A DNA stretch of 64,000 nt from positions 1 to 64,000 of the forward strand of contig JAFQZR010000005.1 in NCBI GenBank assembly GCA_017405785.1. Reading direction: 5' to 3'. The notes under the pieces were generated by a model that saw only the letters and a list, made by a program, of their open reading frames with translations, did not search any database and was not told the DNA's origin. The translations under genes and the position numbers were made by a program. Of the stretch, positions 37,335 to 46,135 are shown piece after piece. Source of the DNA: Erysipelotrichaceae bacterium (GTDB lineage: Bacteria > Bacillota_I > Bacilli_A > Erysipelotrichales > Erysipelotrichaceae). The number at the start of each line of letters is the position of its first letter. Position 1 is the first letter of the stretch.

Positions 37335-37360
37335 TATCATGCCGCAAGGAGGAAGACTAG

Positions 37361-38152
37361 ATGAGCGAATCAAAAGGACAGAAAAAAGTCGCTTTAGGAT
37401 TGATTTTGTTAAGTCTAGGGGGGTTATTTCTGGGAGGCATAGCCGGTTTCCTCGGAACCACGGCTTATGCCAACAACCGGGTTCTTGCCGATCTTAAGAA
37501 GGAAGGATATGTCATTTCCGATGATGCTACTGCCACGGCGGCTGACATCGTTGAAGGAAAGACAGCCTACGTTCAGGGGAAAATGGTCGTGGGAACCATG
37601 GAAGTACTGGATACCGGTGATGCCACCGCATCCAGTGACCGTATCATCAAGGGAAAGACAGCCTATGTTAACGGAGAACTGGTTGTCGGTACCATGGAGA
37701 TTCTGGAGGGAAGAAACTATGTTCCTTCTACCCGGAATCAGGTAATTACCTTGAAGGGATACGTCCAGAACGATATAGTCATTAAAGGTGATGCTAATCT
37801 GAGACCGGAAAACATCAGGGAAGGCATCAACATTTTCAACGTGACCGGAACCTTTGCCATGCCAAAGGTATATACAATTACATACATACTGGGTGAAGGC
37901 GGTGTCAATGACCCTGACAACCCGGATACCTATACAAATAAAGACGCAACGATCGTATTAAAGGATCCTGTCAGAGAAGGATTCATTTTCCTGTACTGGG
38001 AATGCAACGGTGTGGAGAATAACACTATTCCATCCGGGTCTGCTTCCAATAAGACCTTCATTGCGATATGGCAGGAAGTTGAACCTGAGCCTGAGCCGGA
38101 ACCTGATCCGACACCGGATGAACCTCCGGTAATTGACGAAGGAGGCGAATAA
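37361..38152 (+). CDS. Membrane-anchored protein with tail-fibre-like GKTAYV repeats and a Listeria-Bacteroides repeat
   Basis: 263 residues. A lysine-rich start and one helix (about 12-37) anchor it. Outside are two copies of a unit ending GKTAYVxGxxVVGTM (near 68 and 101) and an INIFNVTGTF unit (near 158). These resemble the short beta repeats found in phage tail-fibre and tail-associated proteins. A TITYILGEGG...FLYWECNG segment follows, like the Listeria-Bacteroides (InlB B) repeat, then a Pro/Glu-rich tail. There is no LPxTG. The function is unknown; adhesion or wall interaction is a guess. The next gene shares the repeats. Confidence 0.72.
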   Translation: MSESKGQKKVALGLILLSLGGLFLGGIAGFLGTTAYANNRVLADLKKEGYVISDDATATAADIVEGKTAYVQGKMVVGTMEVLDTGDATASSDRIIKGKTAYVNGELVVGTMEILEGRNYVPSTRNQVITLKGYVQNDIVIKGDANLRPENIREGINIFNVTGTFAMPKVYTITYILGEGGVNDPDNPDTYTNKDATIVLKDPVREGFIFLYWECNGVENNTIPSGSASNKTFIAIWQEVEPEPEPEPDPTPDEPPVIDEGGE

Positions 38153-38154
38153 AC

Positions 38155-38856
38155 ATGCCAATGCCTCTGTTCGGTAAAAGAAACATCAGAAAAGATGAAA
38201 TAAAAGCCAATGAAAATCTGGTAGAAGAGATCCACATTCCGGCACAGCAGGAAGCTGAAGTCGAAGAAGAGAGAACCAAAGGTATTGAAACCATCCGGGA
38301 AGCAACCACGGATACCCAGTCTCTGGTAACGGAAGAAGAGGAAGATGAAGAGTACGAATATGTGACTCCGAATTATACATTACAGGCTATCATGATGGTA
38401 ATGGGTTCAATGTTGCTGGGTGCAGTAATCGTATTTGCGGTTACCAGCGGTATGATGAAGGACAAGGCCAGACAGATTTATCTGTCTCAGGGTTATGTCC
38501 AGACCAAGAATGCCGTTGCCCGCAGTGAAGACATTGCCATGGGTAAAACTGCTTATGTCAACGGAGAACTGGTAATTGGCAGTTATGTAGAGGTCGATAC
38601 ATCCAAGGCTACAGCTACCGCCAATGACGTATTAAAGGGTTATACCTGCTATGTCAACGGTGAGAAGATCACCGGAAGCATTCCGACTTTCACGGCCGAA
38701 AGCTATAACGGTGACACCAGGGACAAGGTAATACCTAAGGGTTATTATCTGGACGGTACTCCGATAAACATTGCCGGAGCTGCCAATCTGGTGAAGCAGA
38801 ACATCAAGGAAGGTGTAACCATCTTCGGGGTAACAGGAACCTATACAGGTGATTAA
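38155..38856 (+). CDS. Membrane-anchored protein with tail-fibre-like GKTAYV repeats, acidic cytoplasmic N-terminus
   Basis: 233 residues. The first 80 are very acidic (runs of Glu/Asp near 60-66) and cytoplasmic; one helix follows at about 80-100. The outer part has GKTAYVNGELVIGS and GYTCYVNGEKITGS units plus a C-terminal KEGVTIFGVTGTYTG, the same repeat family as the preceding gene. It is probably a paired partner: the start is two bases after the other gene's stop, with AAGGAGG upstream. The acidic N-terminus could bind cytoplasmic proteins. No enzyme motif is visible. Confidence 0.72.
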   Translation: MPMPLFGKRNIRKDEIKANENLVEEIHIPAQQEAEVEEERTKGIETIREATTDTQSLVTEEEEDEEYEYVTPNYTLQAIMMVMGSMLLGAVIVFAVTSGMMKDKARQIYLSQGYVQTKNAVARSEDIAMGKTAYVNGELVIGSYVEVDTSKATATANDVLKGYTCYVNGEKITGSIPTFTAESYNGDTRDKVIPKGYYLDGTPINIAGAANLVKQNIKEGVTIFGVTGTYTGD

Positions 38857-41195: not shown

Positions 41196-42011
41196 GTGAA
41201 TCGAGAAGAATTACAAGAACAACTGGAGTATTATAAAGCACTGGGACATCAGGTTCCGAAAATGAAATACATCAAGACTCCTGAACAGATCGAAGGCATC
41301 AGGGAAGCAGGAAGGATCAATTCTGCGGTTCTTGATTATGTCAGTGAAAGAATAAAGGCAGGAATCTCTACACAGGATATTGATGACTGGGTAGCGGAAT
41401 GTACAGCCCGGCATAATGCCATCTGTGCTCCGCTGAATTATCAGGGCTATCCGAAACATGTCTGTGTTTCCGTTAATGACGTTGTCTGTCACGGCATCCC
41501 GAGCAAGAAGAAGATCCTGAAAGAGGGAGATATCGTTAACGTTGACTGTACGACTATCTATAACGGTTATTACGGTGATGCCAGCCGCATGTTCATTATT
41601 GGTCAGACAAAGCCGGAATACGAAAGACTGGTACGTGTCACCAAGCAGTGTCTGGACATCGGTCTGGAAGCAGTAAAACCATGGGGGTTCCTCGGTGATG
41701 TCGGTTATGCCATTGAACAACACGCTTCCCGCAACGGCTTCAAGGTCGTCAGGGACTATGGCGGACATGGCTGCGGCATTGAATTCCATGAAGATCCGAT
41801 GGTACTGCATTACGGCAAGAAGGGCAAGGGATGTCTGATCGTTCCGGGAATGACCTTCACCATTGAACCGATGATCAACATGAAGAAATCAGGAGTCAGA
41901 ATAAGCGCTCTTGACGGCTGGACAGCTTATACCAAGGACGGTCTGCCAAGTGCCCAGTGGGAATACACCATTGCGGTATTTGAAGATCATGTTGAAATAC
42001 TTTCAAAATAA
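41196..42011 (+). CDS. map: Methionine aminopeptidase, type I
   Basis: 271 residues. It removes the initiator methionine from new proteins. The metal ligands are visible: VDCTTIYNGYYGDASR (two Asp), GGHGCGIEFHE (His), TIEPM (Glu) and WEYTI (Glu); VCHGIP supplies the substrate-site His. A 25-residue N-terminal extension makes it longer than the 250-residue minimal form. GCGGAGGG precedes the start. It lies downstream of the exporter genes and ends at a strong terminator. Confidence 0.95.
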   Translation: MNREELQEQLEYYKALGHQVPKMKYIKTPEQIEGIREAGRINSAVLDYVSERIKAGISTQDIDDWVAECTARHNAICAPLNYQGYPKHVCVSVNDVVCHGIPSKKKILKEGDIVNVDCTTIYNGYYGDASRMFIIGQTKPEYERLVRVTKQCLDIGLEAVKPWGFLGDVGYAIEQHASRNGFKVVRDYGGHGCGIEFHEDPMVLHYGKKGKGCLIVPGMTFTIEPMINMKKSGVRISALDGWTAYTKDGLPSAQWEYTIAVFEDHVEILSK

Positions 42012-42971: not shown

Positions 42972-43850
42972 TTAATCCTGATGGTATCCGATCAGTTCCA
43001 GAATTCTGTTGAGGTCTTCAACGTCGCTGTAGCTGATAGTGATGGTGTTTTTGGAAATCTTGACACGGGTCTGCAGCTGATGCTGGAGATTTCTTTCGAC
43101 TTCGTTGGTTGCGCTGTCCTTGACGTAAGGTTCATAGTGCATGGTCGGTCTGCGGAAGCTCTTGATCAGCTTCTCTACCTGTCTGGCTGATAAGCCTTCA
43201 TCAACGATCTTATCGGCGATCTGATTGGTCTTGGCTTCATCATCCAGAGTTACCAGCGGTCTGGCCTGACCCATGGTCAGCTTCTGCTGCTGAATGAGAT
43301 CCTGAACATGTACCGGAAGTTTCAGAAGTCTGAGAATGTTGGAAATATGTTCTCTTGACTTGCCGACTCTCTTGCCGAGTTCTTCCTGGGTATAATGCAG
43401 GTTATCCATCAGCTGTTTGTAACCGTTAGCTTCTTCAATGGCGCTGAGGTCTTCTCTCTGAACGTTTTCCAGCAGGGAGATCTCCATCATCTGATCGTCA
43501 GTAAATTCCATTACGATGGCAGGGATGGTAGTATTACCGGCCATTTCAGCGGCACGGAGTCTTCTTTCACCGGCAATCAGCTGATAGCCGTCAAAGCTTG
43601 GACGAATCAGAATCGGAGTGAATACTCCGTGTTCCTTAATTGACCGGGCCAGTTCTTCCAGTTTATCCTGGTCAAATACTCTTCTTGGCTGATAAGGGTT
43701 GGTGTGGACTTCGGAGATGTTTACTGTGGTCTTATAACCGTATTCGTCACCGGCAGCGCTGTTCTGAATGTCATCAATGATGCTGCTGAGTTCCGGTCCG
43801 AAAAGGGCATCTAACCCTGAACCTAATCCTGACTTTTCATCTTTTGGCAT
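42972..43850 (-). CDS. parB: Chromosome partitioning protein ParB (Spo0J)
   Basis: 292 residues. It binds parS sites near the origin, clamps DNA with CTP and loads SMC. The N-terminal SGLGSGLDALFG recruits ParA, IAGERRLRAAEMAG near 93 is the CTP/arginine patch, and TQEELGKRVGKSREHISNILRLLKLP is the DNA-binding helix-turn-helix. A C-terminal dimer domain ends the protein. Gene order rsmG-noc-parA-parB is the classic oriC-proximal cluster of Bacillota. Confidence 0.96.
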   Translation of the reverse strand: MPKDEKSGLGSGLDALFGPELSSIIDDIQNSAAGDEYGYKTTVNISEVHTNPYQPRRVFDQDKLEELARSIKEHGVFTPILIRPSFDGYQLIAGERRLRAAEMAGNTTIPAIVMEFTDDQMMEISLLENVQREDLSAIEEANGYKQLMDNLHYTQEELGKRVGKSREHISNILRLLKLPVHVQDLIQQQKLTMGQARPLVTLDDEAKTNQIADKIVDEGLSARQVEKLIKSFRRPTMHYEPYVKDSATNEVERNLQHQLQTRVKISKNTITISYSDVEDLNRILELIGYHQD

Positions 43851-43861
43851 AAGTTACCTCC

Positions 43862-44638
43862 TTATGAATTCTTCTCAATTACTTCTTTAGCCAGTGAGGC
43901 ATATGCTCTGGCTCCTATGCAGGTCTTGTCATATTCAAAGATGCTCTTGCCATGGGACGGTGCTTCCGCCAGACGGACATTTCTCGGAATGTAGCTGCGG
44001 TAGACTCTTTCCTTGAAGTATTTTCTGACTTCCCGCTGTACTTCGGTTGACAGATTGGTGCGGGAGTCAAACATGGTAAGAAGGACACCTTCAATGTAAA
44101 GCTTGCGGTTGTAGTGTTTCTGGACATTGCGGATGGTTGATAACAGCTGGGTCACACCTTCCAGGGCATAGTATTCACACTGTACCGGAATGATGACGGA
44201 ATCAGCGGCTGTCAGGGCGTTGGCATTTAACAGTCCCAGTGAAGGAGGGCAGTCGATGATGATGAAATCATAGTTGTTTCTGATGACATCGAGCTTTCTC
44301 TTTAAGAAGCTTTCCTTGCCGCTGGTCCGGTTGACCATCTGATAATCGCTGCCGGCCAGATCGATGGTAGCAGGGATCAGATCCAGTGGAGGTATCGGCA
44401 GATGGATGATGCATTCTTCCGCGGATACGTTACCTAAAAGCAGTTCATATGCACTGTGAACCACATTGTTTTTCGCGTTTAAACCTCTGGTAGCGTTGCC
44501 CTGAGGGTCAAAGTCCACCAGTAATACTTTCTTTTTCAGATAAGCCAGTCCGGCTGCCAGGTTGACACTTGTGGTTGTCTTGCCGACTCCGCCTTTCTGG
44601 TTGGATACTGCAATTATCTTGCCCATATATTCATTCAC
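43862..44638 (-). CDS. parA: Chromosome partitioning ATPase ParA (Soj)
   Basis: 258 residues. The deviant Walker A KGGVGKTT near residue 15, DFDPQGNATRG and IIDCPPSLGLL (Walker B) mark the ParA/MinD ATPase family. It forms a nucleoid-bound gradient driving ParB-parS separation and, in Bacillus, regulates DnaA. The start at 44638 follows AAGGATGTGA; an ATG at 44626 is four codons later. It has its own promoter and lies 11 bases before parB. Confidence 0.96.
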   Translation of the reverse strand: MNEYMGKIIAVSNQKGGVGKTTTSVNLAAGLAYLKKKVLLVDFDPQGNATRGLNAKNNVVHSAYELLLGNVSAEECIIHLPIPPLDLIPATIDLAGSDYQMVNRTSGKESFLKRKLDVIRNNYDFIIIDCPPSLGLLNANALTAADSVIIPVQCEYYALEGVTQLLSTIRNVQKHYNRKLYIEGVLLTMFDSRTNLSTEVQREVRKYFKERVYRSYIPRNVRLAEAPSHGKSIFEYDKTCIGARAYASLAKEVIEKNS

Positions 44639-44653
44639 ATCCTTGTCTGTAAT

Positions 44654-44662
44654 ATTCTATCA
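44654..44662 (-). promoter_or_regulatory. Extended -10 promoter for parA-parB
   Basis: TGATAGAAT on the minus strand between noc and parA, 15 bases before the parA start. The message would carry a very short leader. Confidence 0.45.
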
Positions 44663-44670
44663 CAAATATG

Positions 44671-45432
44671 TTACTTTTTAATGTTTATTGTGATGGTATA
44701 GGTATCTTCGTTTTCACTTTCCTGCATCTCGACAGGAACATTGACTTCCTTGAGGCTGTTTACAGCCTTCTTGATGGTATTGACAGCGATTCTGGTGCTG
44801 ATACCGAAGCACTTGGCATCTGTCTTCTTTGGCTTTTCCTTAAAGGATCTTTCGATAAGTTTCTCGGTTTCCTTAACGGTAAGGTCTTTTTCTCTGACCT
44901 TCTCTAGTACCTGGATCTGCTGTTCATTACTTAGTTTTAACATGGCACGGCCGTGTCTTTCAGTAATCTGACGGCTGTTGATGGCCTGCTGAACTTCTTC
45001 ACACAGATTCAGTAATCTTATCTTATTGGCGATAAAGGGCTGGCTTTTGCCCAGTCTTTCAGCCAGCTGTTCCTGAGTGGAGTCAGACATGCGTAATAAC
45101 TGACGGTAGGCATTGGCTTCTTCAATGGCTGACAGGTCATCACGCTGCAGGTTCTCAATTAAGGCCAGTCGGGCCATCCGCTGTTCATCAGCATCCATTA
45201 TGACACATGGGGCTGCATACCACTGCAGCTGCTGAAGAGCTCTGTATCTTCTTTCTCCGGCGATGATCTCATAGTTAAAATCATCCTTCTGCCTGACGGT
45301 GATAGGCTGAATGACGCCGTTAAGATGAATGGACATGGCCAGTTCATTAAGGCTCTGCTCATCAAAGTTAACACGAGGCTGATAAGGATTTGAGTGGATC
45401 TGTGAGAGTGGAATGTATCTTACTTCGGACAT
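44671..45432 (-). CDS. noc: Noc-like nucleoid occlusion protein (ParB paralogue) lacking the N-terminal membrane helix
   Basis: 253 residues. The ParB-type N-domain (NPYQPRVNFDEQ, IIAGERRYRALQQ, ENLQRDDLSAIEEANAY) and an HTH (TQEQLAERLGKSQPFIANKIRLL) are intact, and it sits where noc lies in Bacillus, after rsmG. Bacillus Noc has about 35 extra N-terminal residues carrying an amphipathic membrane-targeting helix; here the protein begins MSEVRYIPLSQIHSNPYQPR, directly at the ParB fold. It may therefore bind DNA and CTP without tethering to the membrane as Bacillus Noc does. It could equally be called a second ParB. Confidence 0.85.
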   Translation of the reverse strand: MSEVRYIPLSQIHSNPYQPRVNFDEQSLNELAMSIHLNGVIQPITVRQKDDFNYEIIAGERRYRALQQLQWYAAPCVIMDADEQRMARLALIENLQRDDLSAIEEANAYRQLLRMSDSTQEQLAERLGKSQPFIANKIRLLNLCEEVQQAINSRQITERHGRAMLKLSNEQQIQVLEKVREKDLTVKETEKLIERSFKEKPKKTDAKCFGISTRIAVNTIKKAVNSLKEVNVPVEMQESENEDTYTITINIKK

Positions 45433-45445
45433 TATTTATCCTTTC

Positions 45446-46135
45446 TTATAACGGTTTCTTTTTGATCAGGGCATAGCGGCGCGGATAACCTGCCGGTGTT
45501 TCCTTGATCTTTTCTATGTCGATGATGTATCTTTCGCTTTCATCCGGTAACATGAGGTGAGCATTATCATAAAGCTTTCCTCCCAGTTTGCGGATGGCGT
45601 TTTCAGCTTCCTTCAGTTCTTCAGGGCCCTGAGAACCCTTCATGGCGATGAAGTGGCCGTTTACTTCCGTTAACGGCAGACACAGTTCGCTCAGAATATT
45701 GAGACGGGATACGGCACGGGCTGTTGTATAGGTAAACTTTCTGTCTCTGTATTCTTCCCGGCGGCAGTTAAGTACTTCGATGTTTTTCAGTTTGAGTTGG
45801 TTAATGGCTTCCTGCAGGAAAATGCATTTCTTGCCGGTCGGTTCCATCAGATAAACATGCAGCTGCGGATAGACGATTTCCAGAACAATGCCCGGGAATC
45901 CCGCACCGGTACCGATATCACATAATGTGTCTTCCTCTTTGAAGTCTCTTTTCAGTAACAGACAGTCATAGAAGTGTCTTATGAAAATGCCGTCTCTGTC
46001 GGTAATGGCGGTCAGATTGAACTTCTGATTCCACTCGACTAACAAATCAGCATATAAATCAAACTGAGCGAGCTGCTCAGGTGTTAATTCCATATCGATC
46101 TGTTTCAGCAGTGTTACAAATTCTTCGTTCACCAT
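45446..46135 (-). CDS. rsmG: 16S rRNA (guanine527-N7) methyltransferase
   Basis: 229 residues. It methylates G527 of 16S rRNA using SAM; loss gives low-level streptomycin resistance in other bacteria. YADLLVEWNQKFNLTAITDRDGIFIRHFYDCL and the SAM-binding DIGTGAGFPGIVL (near 89) are diagnostic, as is TARAVSRLNILSELCLPL. There is no ribosome binding site; a TGATATAAT promoter lies seven bases upstream of ATG, so the message is probably leaderless. mnmE and mnmG, usual upstream partners, are absent: the divergent tldD-like gene is next. Confidence 0.95.
   Translation of the reverse strand: MVNEEFVTLLKQIDMELTPEQLAQFDLYADLLVEWNQKFNLTAITDRDGIFIRHFYDCLLLKRDFKEEDTLCDIGTGAGFPGIVLEIVYPQLHVYLMEPTGKKCIFLQEAINQLKLKNIEVLNCRREEYRDRKFTYTTARAVSRLNILSELCLPLTEVNGHFIAMKGSQGPEELKEAENAIRKLGGKLYDNAHLMLPDESERYIIDIEKIKETPAGYPRRYALIKKKPL

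Follow-up and report, generated by a model that had tools for sequence, protein, structure and literature searches.

Organization of the locus and architecture of the encoded proteins

Two genes of the same strand, here named A and B, lie side by side in the window (the whole stretch of 64,000 nucleotides that was analysed), with the start of B positioned 2 bases past the stop of A (Table 1). The two are probably co-transcribed. Scans for promoters and terminators returned counts equal to those of shuffled sequence (6 vs a shuffle mean of 5.8 and 2 vs 2.3, respectively), and therefore no promoter or terminator is claimed. Each protein was found by hydropathy to have a single strong hydrophobic stretch and to carry a module composed of (i) two 32-residue units of the pattern GKTAYV.G....G[TS]; and (ii) one closing unit with the pattern NIxxGVxIFxVTGT, or NI..G..IF.VTGT[FY]. 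The best identity of an internal 31-mer repeat was 19/31 in A and 14/31 in B, compared with a maximum of 11 in 200 residue shuffles of each protein, and A and B were 39% identical across the anchor and module. The open reading frames, coordinates, and repeats of the original prediction, which described two adjacent membrane-anchored proteins with GKTAYV units and a shared closing unit, were thus confirmed. AlphaFold monomer models (pLDDT 77.9 and pTM 0.34 for A; pLDDT 76.0 and pTM 0.36 for B) displayed one long helix, then a short helix and a hairpin in each unit, with residues 1-70 of B modelled at a pLDDT of about 45-55.

Outside the module, a Listeria-Bacteroides repeat (PF09479) was detected in A at 28.5 bits against a Pfam cut-off of 27, while B had no match. 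This domain and the Pro/Glu-rich tail had been predicted and are present in the A protein of the window; however, the domain was found in only 7 of 15 A proteins and was missing from the other 8 by alignment and length. The head of B, 77 residues in length, is acidic as anticipated (21 D/E and 8 K/R). The coding pattern of its DxEYEYxTPxY motif occurred once in the organism's own genome, and a head-plus-helix query of B against 272 genomes of the family recovered the 15 genomes with the pair plus four weak hits (E 0.001-0.008).

Table 1. Features of the A/B locus (positions within the window)
Feature	Position	Strand	Evidence
Ribosome-binding site of A, AAGGAGG	37346..37352	+	direct sequence reading
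A, 263-aa bitopic protein	37361..38152	+	ORF list; orthologues in 15 loci; dN/dS
A membrane helix core, residues 10-28	37388..37444	+	hydropathy; AF2 model helix 5-47
A unit 1, residues 48-79	37502..37597	+	alignment, profile
A unit 2, residues 80-111	37598..37693	+	alignment, profile
A closing unit, ends NIREGINIFNVTGTF	37694..37855	+	alignment; phage counterparts
A Listeria-Bacteroides repeat (PF09479), residues 171-235	37871..38065	+	Pfam
A Pro/Glu-rich tail	38072..38149	+	sequence
Ribosome-binding site of B, AAGGAGG, within end of A	38139..38145	+	direct sequence reading
B, 233-aa bitopic protein	38155..38856	+	ORF list; orthologues in 15 loci; dN/dS
B acidic, mostly disordered head, residues 1-77	38155..38385	+	charges; pLDDT
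B juxtamembrane motif DxEYEYxTPxY	38344..38376	+	invariant in 15/15 B
B membrane helix core, residues 78-96	38386..38442	+	hydropathy; predicted helix 74-111
B unit 1, residues 112-143	38488..38583	+	alignment, profile
B unit 2, residues 144-175	38584..38679	+	alignment, profile
B closing unit, ends NIKEGVTIFGVTGTY	38680..38844	+	alignment, profile
Methionine aminopeptidase (M24), conserved downstream neighbour, outside the device	41196..42011	+	family scan

Phage tail counterparts of the module

Among the PHROG profiles, phrog_38337 was matched across the module by A (1.2e-17) and B (2.1e-18), and phrog_13589 was matched as well (E 3.5e-10 and 3.1e-10, respectively); both are annotated as of unknown function in PHROGs. 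Alignment revealed the whole A/B module, beyond the motif alone, in phage proteins, with the same three-part organization matched residue by residue. When the structural models were compared with BFVD by Foldseek, entries named 'Tail protein' ranked first (B, E 2.1e-10; A, E 2.0e-9). Gene context was in agreement with the predicted phage-tail type of the units: (i) in an order-level relative (G050) a 195-aa module protein is encoded in two prophage-like regions, in one of which (L062) its gene follows the tape measure, Dit, and minor tail genes and precedes the holin and endolysin genes; and (ii) in phage PV036438 the module gene is flanked by tail protein genes and holin/endolysin. Among phages, the three-part module is frequent in tail genes placed between those for baseplate and holin. 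In another genus of the family (g48), three genomes were found to have matches, and the flanks of one locus read from each resemble by eye the tail ends of prophages. At the level of sequence, the soluble parts of A and B are homologous to phage tail proteins. Unlike A and B, which are anchored, the phage tail proteins have other N- and C-terminal domains and no membrane anchor: among the best 80 of 205 viral hits, an anchor before the module was scored in 1 of 79 loci, and the best match along the whole module was 48% identical.

A profile search did not place the repeat in an unrelated, well-described family, as no Pfam or NCBIfam model matched it in A or B, and Pfam held no family for it in ten phage and host relatives. 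Sequence profiles compared with solved structures gave nothing significant (best E 0.68), Foldseek gave no match to the PDB under E 1, and a second aligner returned one row at Z 3.4, from which no relationship is drawn. A literature search limited to the string GKTAYVNG and to titles on the A/B pair found neither.

Genomic neighbourhood of the pair

The ten neighbours scanned were of ABC transporter, PrmC, RF1, M24 peptidase, DUF3592, ParA, and ParB types. As predicted, no phage genes were detected among them, and the pair lies outside any phage structural module; therefore, the module at this locus is a homologue of the phage module and not a phage gene. The methionine aminopeptidase gene was found downstream of the pair on the same strand in 15/15 loci: it follows immediately in seven, lies beyond an ABC transporter pair in four, and is farther along the same contig in the other four. 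In two genomes of the family that have no pair (L284 and L286), a gene judged by eye to be prmC-like directly precedes the aminopeptidase gene. At another locus (L278, G004:C45:14430-15239) the aminopeptidase match reads through one TAA, possibly an assembly error. The original prediction had also drawn a cell-envelope role from the L,D-transpeptidase gene upstream; this link was not borne out, as the gene adjoins the pair only in the window, L142, and L143 (3/15 loci), with other upstream genes elsewhere, and A and B were not retained as candidates for L,D-transpeptidase-linked envelope proteins. The comparison of neighbourhoods kept the longest non-overlapping ORF, by which A and/or B were dropped in L142, L143, L152, and L153, although both genes are present there. 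Genes for ParB, ParA, and Noc/ParB-like proteins, and one judged by eye to be RsmG-like, are located near the pair, at 42972-46135 of the window, which probably places the locus close to the replication origin.

Distribution, phylogeny, and selection

Two module copies were detected in 8 of the 9 genomes of the organism's own genus and in 7/7 of genus g26. The ninth genome, which is 75% complete, has no pair and also no match to the downstream methionine aminopeptidase. A module profile was built from 16 of 18 module copies of nine genomes, and the family-wide profile search matched 18 of 272 genomes, comprising the 15 with the pair and the three of g48. In the organism's own genome, A and B are the only copies of the module. 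In a scan of public genomes (best 80 of 161 genome hits), each of the 14 best loci was a pair, and the records carried the names Erysipelotrichaceae, Erysipelotrichia, or uncultured Firmicutes.

Ratios of dN/dS, determined for 9 chosen pairs per gene of which several had dS >1, were 0.06-0.14 for A and 0.08-0.27 for B. In a tree of 37 rows (A and B plus hits that spanned no fewer than 96 model positions and scored >25 bits), B formed one clade (SH-aLRT 86) and A formed one group (SH-aLRT 97) that includes two long-branched viral rows. These values show purifying selection on a pair inherited along both genera. Based on the tree, the co-occurrence in two genera, and the low dN/dS, the A/B duplication most likely predates the split of the two genera, with the pair kept by selection. 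Since its two members have stayed together and resisted change in two genera, the pair looks like a real cellular device.

The module in other anchored bacterial proteins

An anchor was scored before the module in 45 of 78 genome loci, the 14 pairs included (best 80 of 161 genome hits, scored on the best ORF per locus; one of the 78, L182, had no ORF hit). Many of these proteins are from Clostridia assemblies and combine a helix, a GKTAYV unit, and a C-terminal domain. The stalk proteins of L160, L178, L181, and L195 resemble A and B in that GKTAYV units come after a membrane helix at the N-terminus; however, the terminal tip of several is an FGE-sulfatase-like or other domain, they have no acidic head, and no B-type partner was seen in the loci listed. 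The FGE-sulfatase match was above the cut-off in L195 and below it in two other anchored proteins. The L181 locus is a diversity-generating retroelement, with MutS-I, bAvd, and reverse transcriptase genes downstream of the anchored stalk protein. Its 120-base repeat, present at the C-terminal end of the protein gene and as a copy behind the transcriptase, has 22 differences, all at adenines of the second copy, the template. The setting of this retroelement (L181:7752-11480, contig CAKNIZ010000005.1) is chromosomal-looking, and the reverse transcriptase of L198 is 93% identical to that of L181. Membrane-anchored retroelement targets are a known class, described in PMC8144416. A and B themselves were rejected as targets of this type, with no FGE-sulfatase or Lcl match in either protein by Pfam. 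Numerous anchored stalk proteins, several of them from one assembly, were also observed in L160, L163, L168, L170, and many of L178-L214 (contigs CAKNIZ, CAKNJR, CALX, and others), which suggests a lineage-specific expansion of surface proteins in those assemblies. In addition, the unit was seen in proteins judged by eye to have a prepilin-like N-terminus (GITLVA...) at L184:334-1329 and L205:3635-4450.

Other anchored bacterial proteins hold tips on the module, one of them retroelement-diversified, and so the best and most economical view of the module, for phages and cells alike, is of a stalk by which a tip is presented. Capture of the module from a phage is plausible. As anchored proteins with the module are also numerous on bacterial contigs (45/78), the phage-to-host direction is not proven; capture is not the sole possible history, and the tree leaves the direction undecided. 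The earlier description of the repeats as domesticated fits their retention under purifying selection, but it shares this reservation about direction.

Possible functions of the pair

We tentatively favour A and B as a two-protein envelope scaffold or short surface appendage built on phage-tail-type stalks, a reading that leads the others while falling somewhat short of probable. The module would most likely derive from a phage tail gene that gained a membrane anchor by fusion, and the anchored module would have been duplicated before the two genera split, giving A and B. The stalks of A, and probably of B, would lie outside the membrane and pack together like fibre modules, and A and B may together make up a scaffold of the envelope, or a short appendage on the surface, that is hetero-oligomeric and permanent. 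In some species A would also bear an InlB-type domain with a tail serving as spacer, while the invariant DxEYEYxTPxY segment of B, beside the membrane, may bind a partner. Against this reading, neither protein has a recognisable ligand-binding tip apart from the InlB-type domain of 7/15 A proteins, and the structural models are of monomers, with a pTM of 0.34 and 0.36. Anchoring of a contractile injection system was rejected as a role: the sheath family PF04984 was not found in the organism's own genome (0/1; 97% complete), compared with 3 of 14 control genomes.

An adhesin pair, in which the stalks tether the bacterium to a neighbouring cell or some substrate and the InlB-type domain of A is the binding end, is unlikely. 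The above-cut-off PF09479 match in A is consistent with adhesion, as are the C-type-lectin-like tips that other anchored proteins carry on the same stalk, one of them retroelement-diversified; however, the domain is missing from 8/15 A proteins and B has no tip at all. Although A shares one domain with the InlB B-repeat proteins, it does so as a single copy, and no LRR family was detected among the Pfam matches of A and B up to E 10, by which an internalin-type surface protein was rejected. Adhesins usually vary fast, which also contrasts with the low dN/dS of both genes.

The charges flanking the helices raise an equally improbable arrangement, with the repeats of A outside, those of B inside, and the acidic head of B outside, thus placing the module on both membrane faces. 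In all 15 B proteins the helix is flanked by 0-1 K/R and 4-5 D/E on the N side and by 2-3 K/R on the C side, while in A the K/R count is higher on the N side in 13/15, with two ties. The positive-inside rule relates flanking K/R to helix orientation, and by this rule the K/R excess C-terminal of the B helix favours a head outside and repeats inside (N-out in 15/15), with N-in favoured for A. The cytoplasmic location originally given to the B head and the extracellular location given to the units are both inferential, and for B they are opposed by the charge pattern. Were the B repeats inside, the picture of a shared stalk would break. However, the rule is not a test, translocation of a head of 77-142 residues without a signal peptide is uncommon, and most B heads open with a basic run of the MKxPFxKK type. 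The fuller history, in which one captured phage-tail stalk was anchored and duplicated and gave rise to a two-protein trans-membrane device with oppositely inserted paralogues, with the module on both membrane faces and EYEYxTPxY at the membrane edge, is quite unlikely.

That membrane-tethered tail stalks poison or compete with incoming phage tails is very unlikely. Tail-protein homologues are encoded beside holin genes, which would suit such phage exclusion; however, defence genes are patchy and fast-evolving, unlike a pair with uniform presence, a conserved neighbourhood, and purifying selection, and the closest of the viral matches compared is only 48% identical over the whole module. A recent prophage remnant without cell function, to which the tail homology alone would point, is scarcely credible given no phage genes among the neighbours scanned, only two copies in the genome, and a conservation across 15 loci and two genera at low dN/dS that already contradicts a remnant.

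Overall, the pair in gut-type Erysipelotrichaceae is a real, conserved, paired membrane device of phage-tail-type stalk, which may function as the scaffold or appendage favoured above. The pair is a clear example of a phage-tail-type building block that cells have retained as a fixed membrane device of two proteins, and not as a prophage, tailocin, or defence gene. Furthermore, a small repeat for which Pfam and NCBIfam have no model appears to be a general stalk common to phage tails and bacterial surface proteins, one of which is retroelement-diversified.
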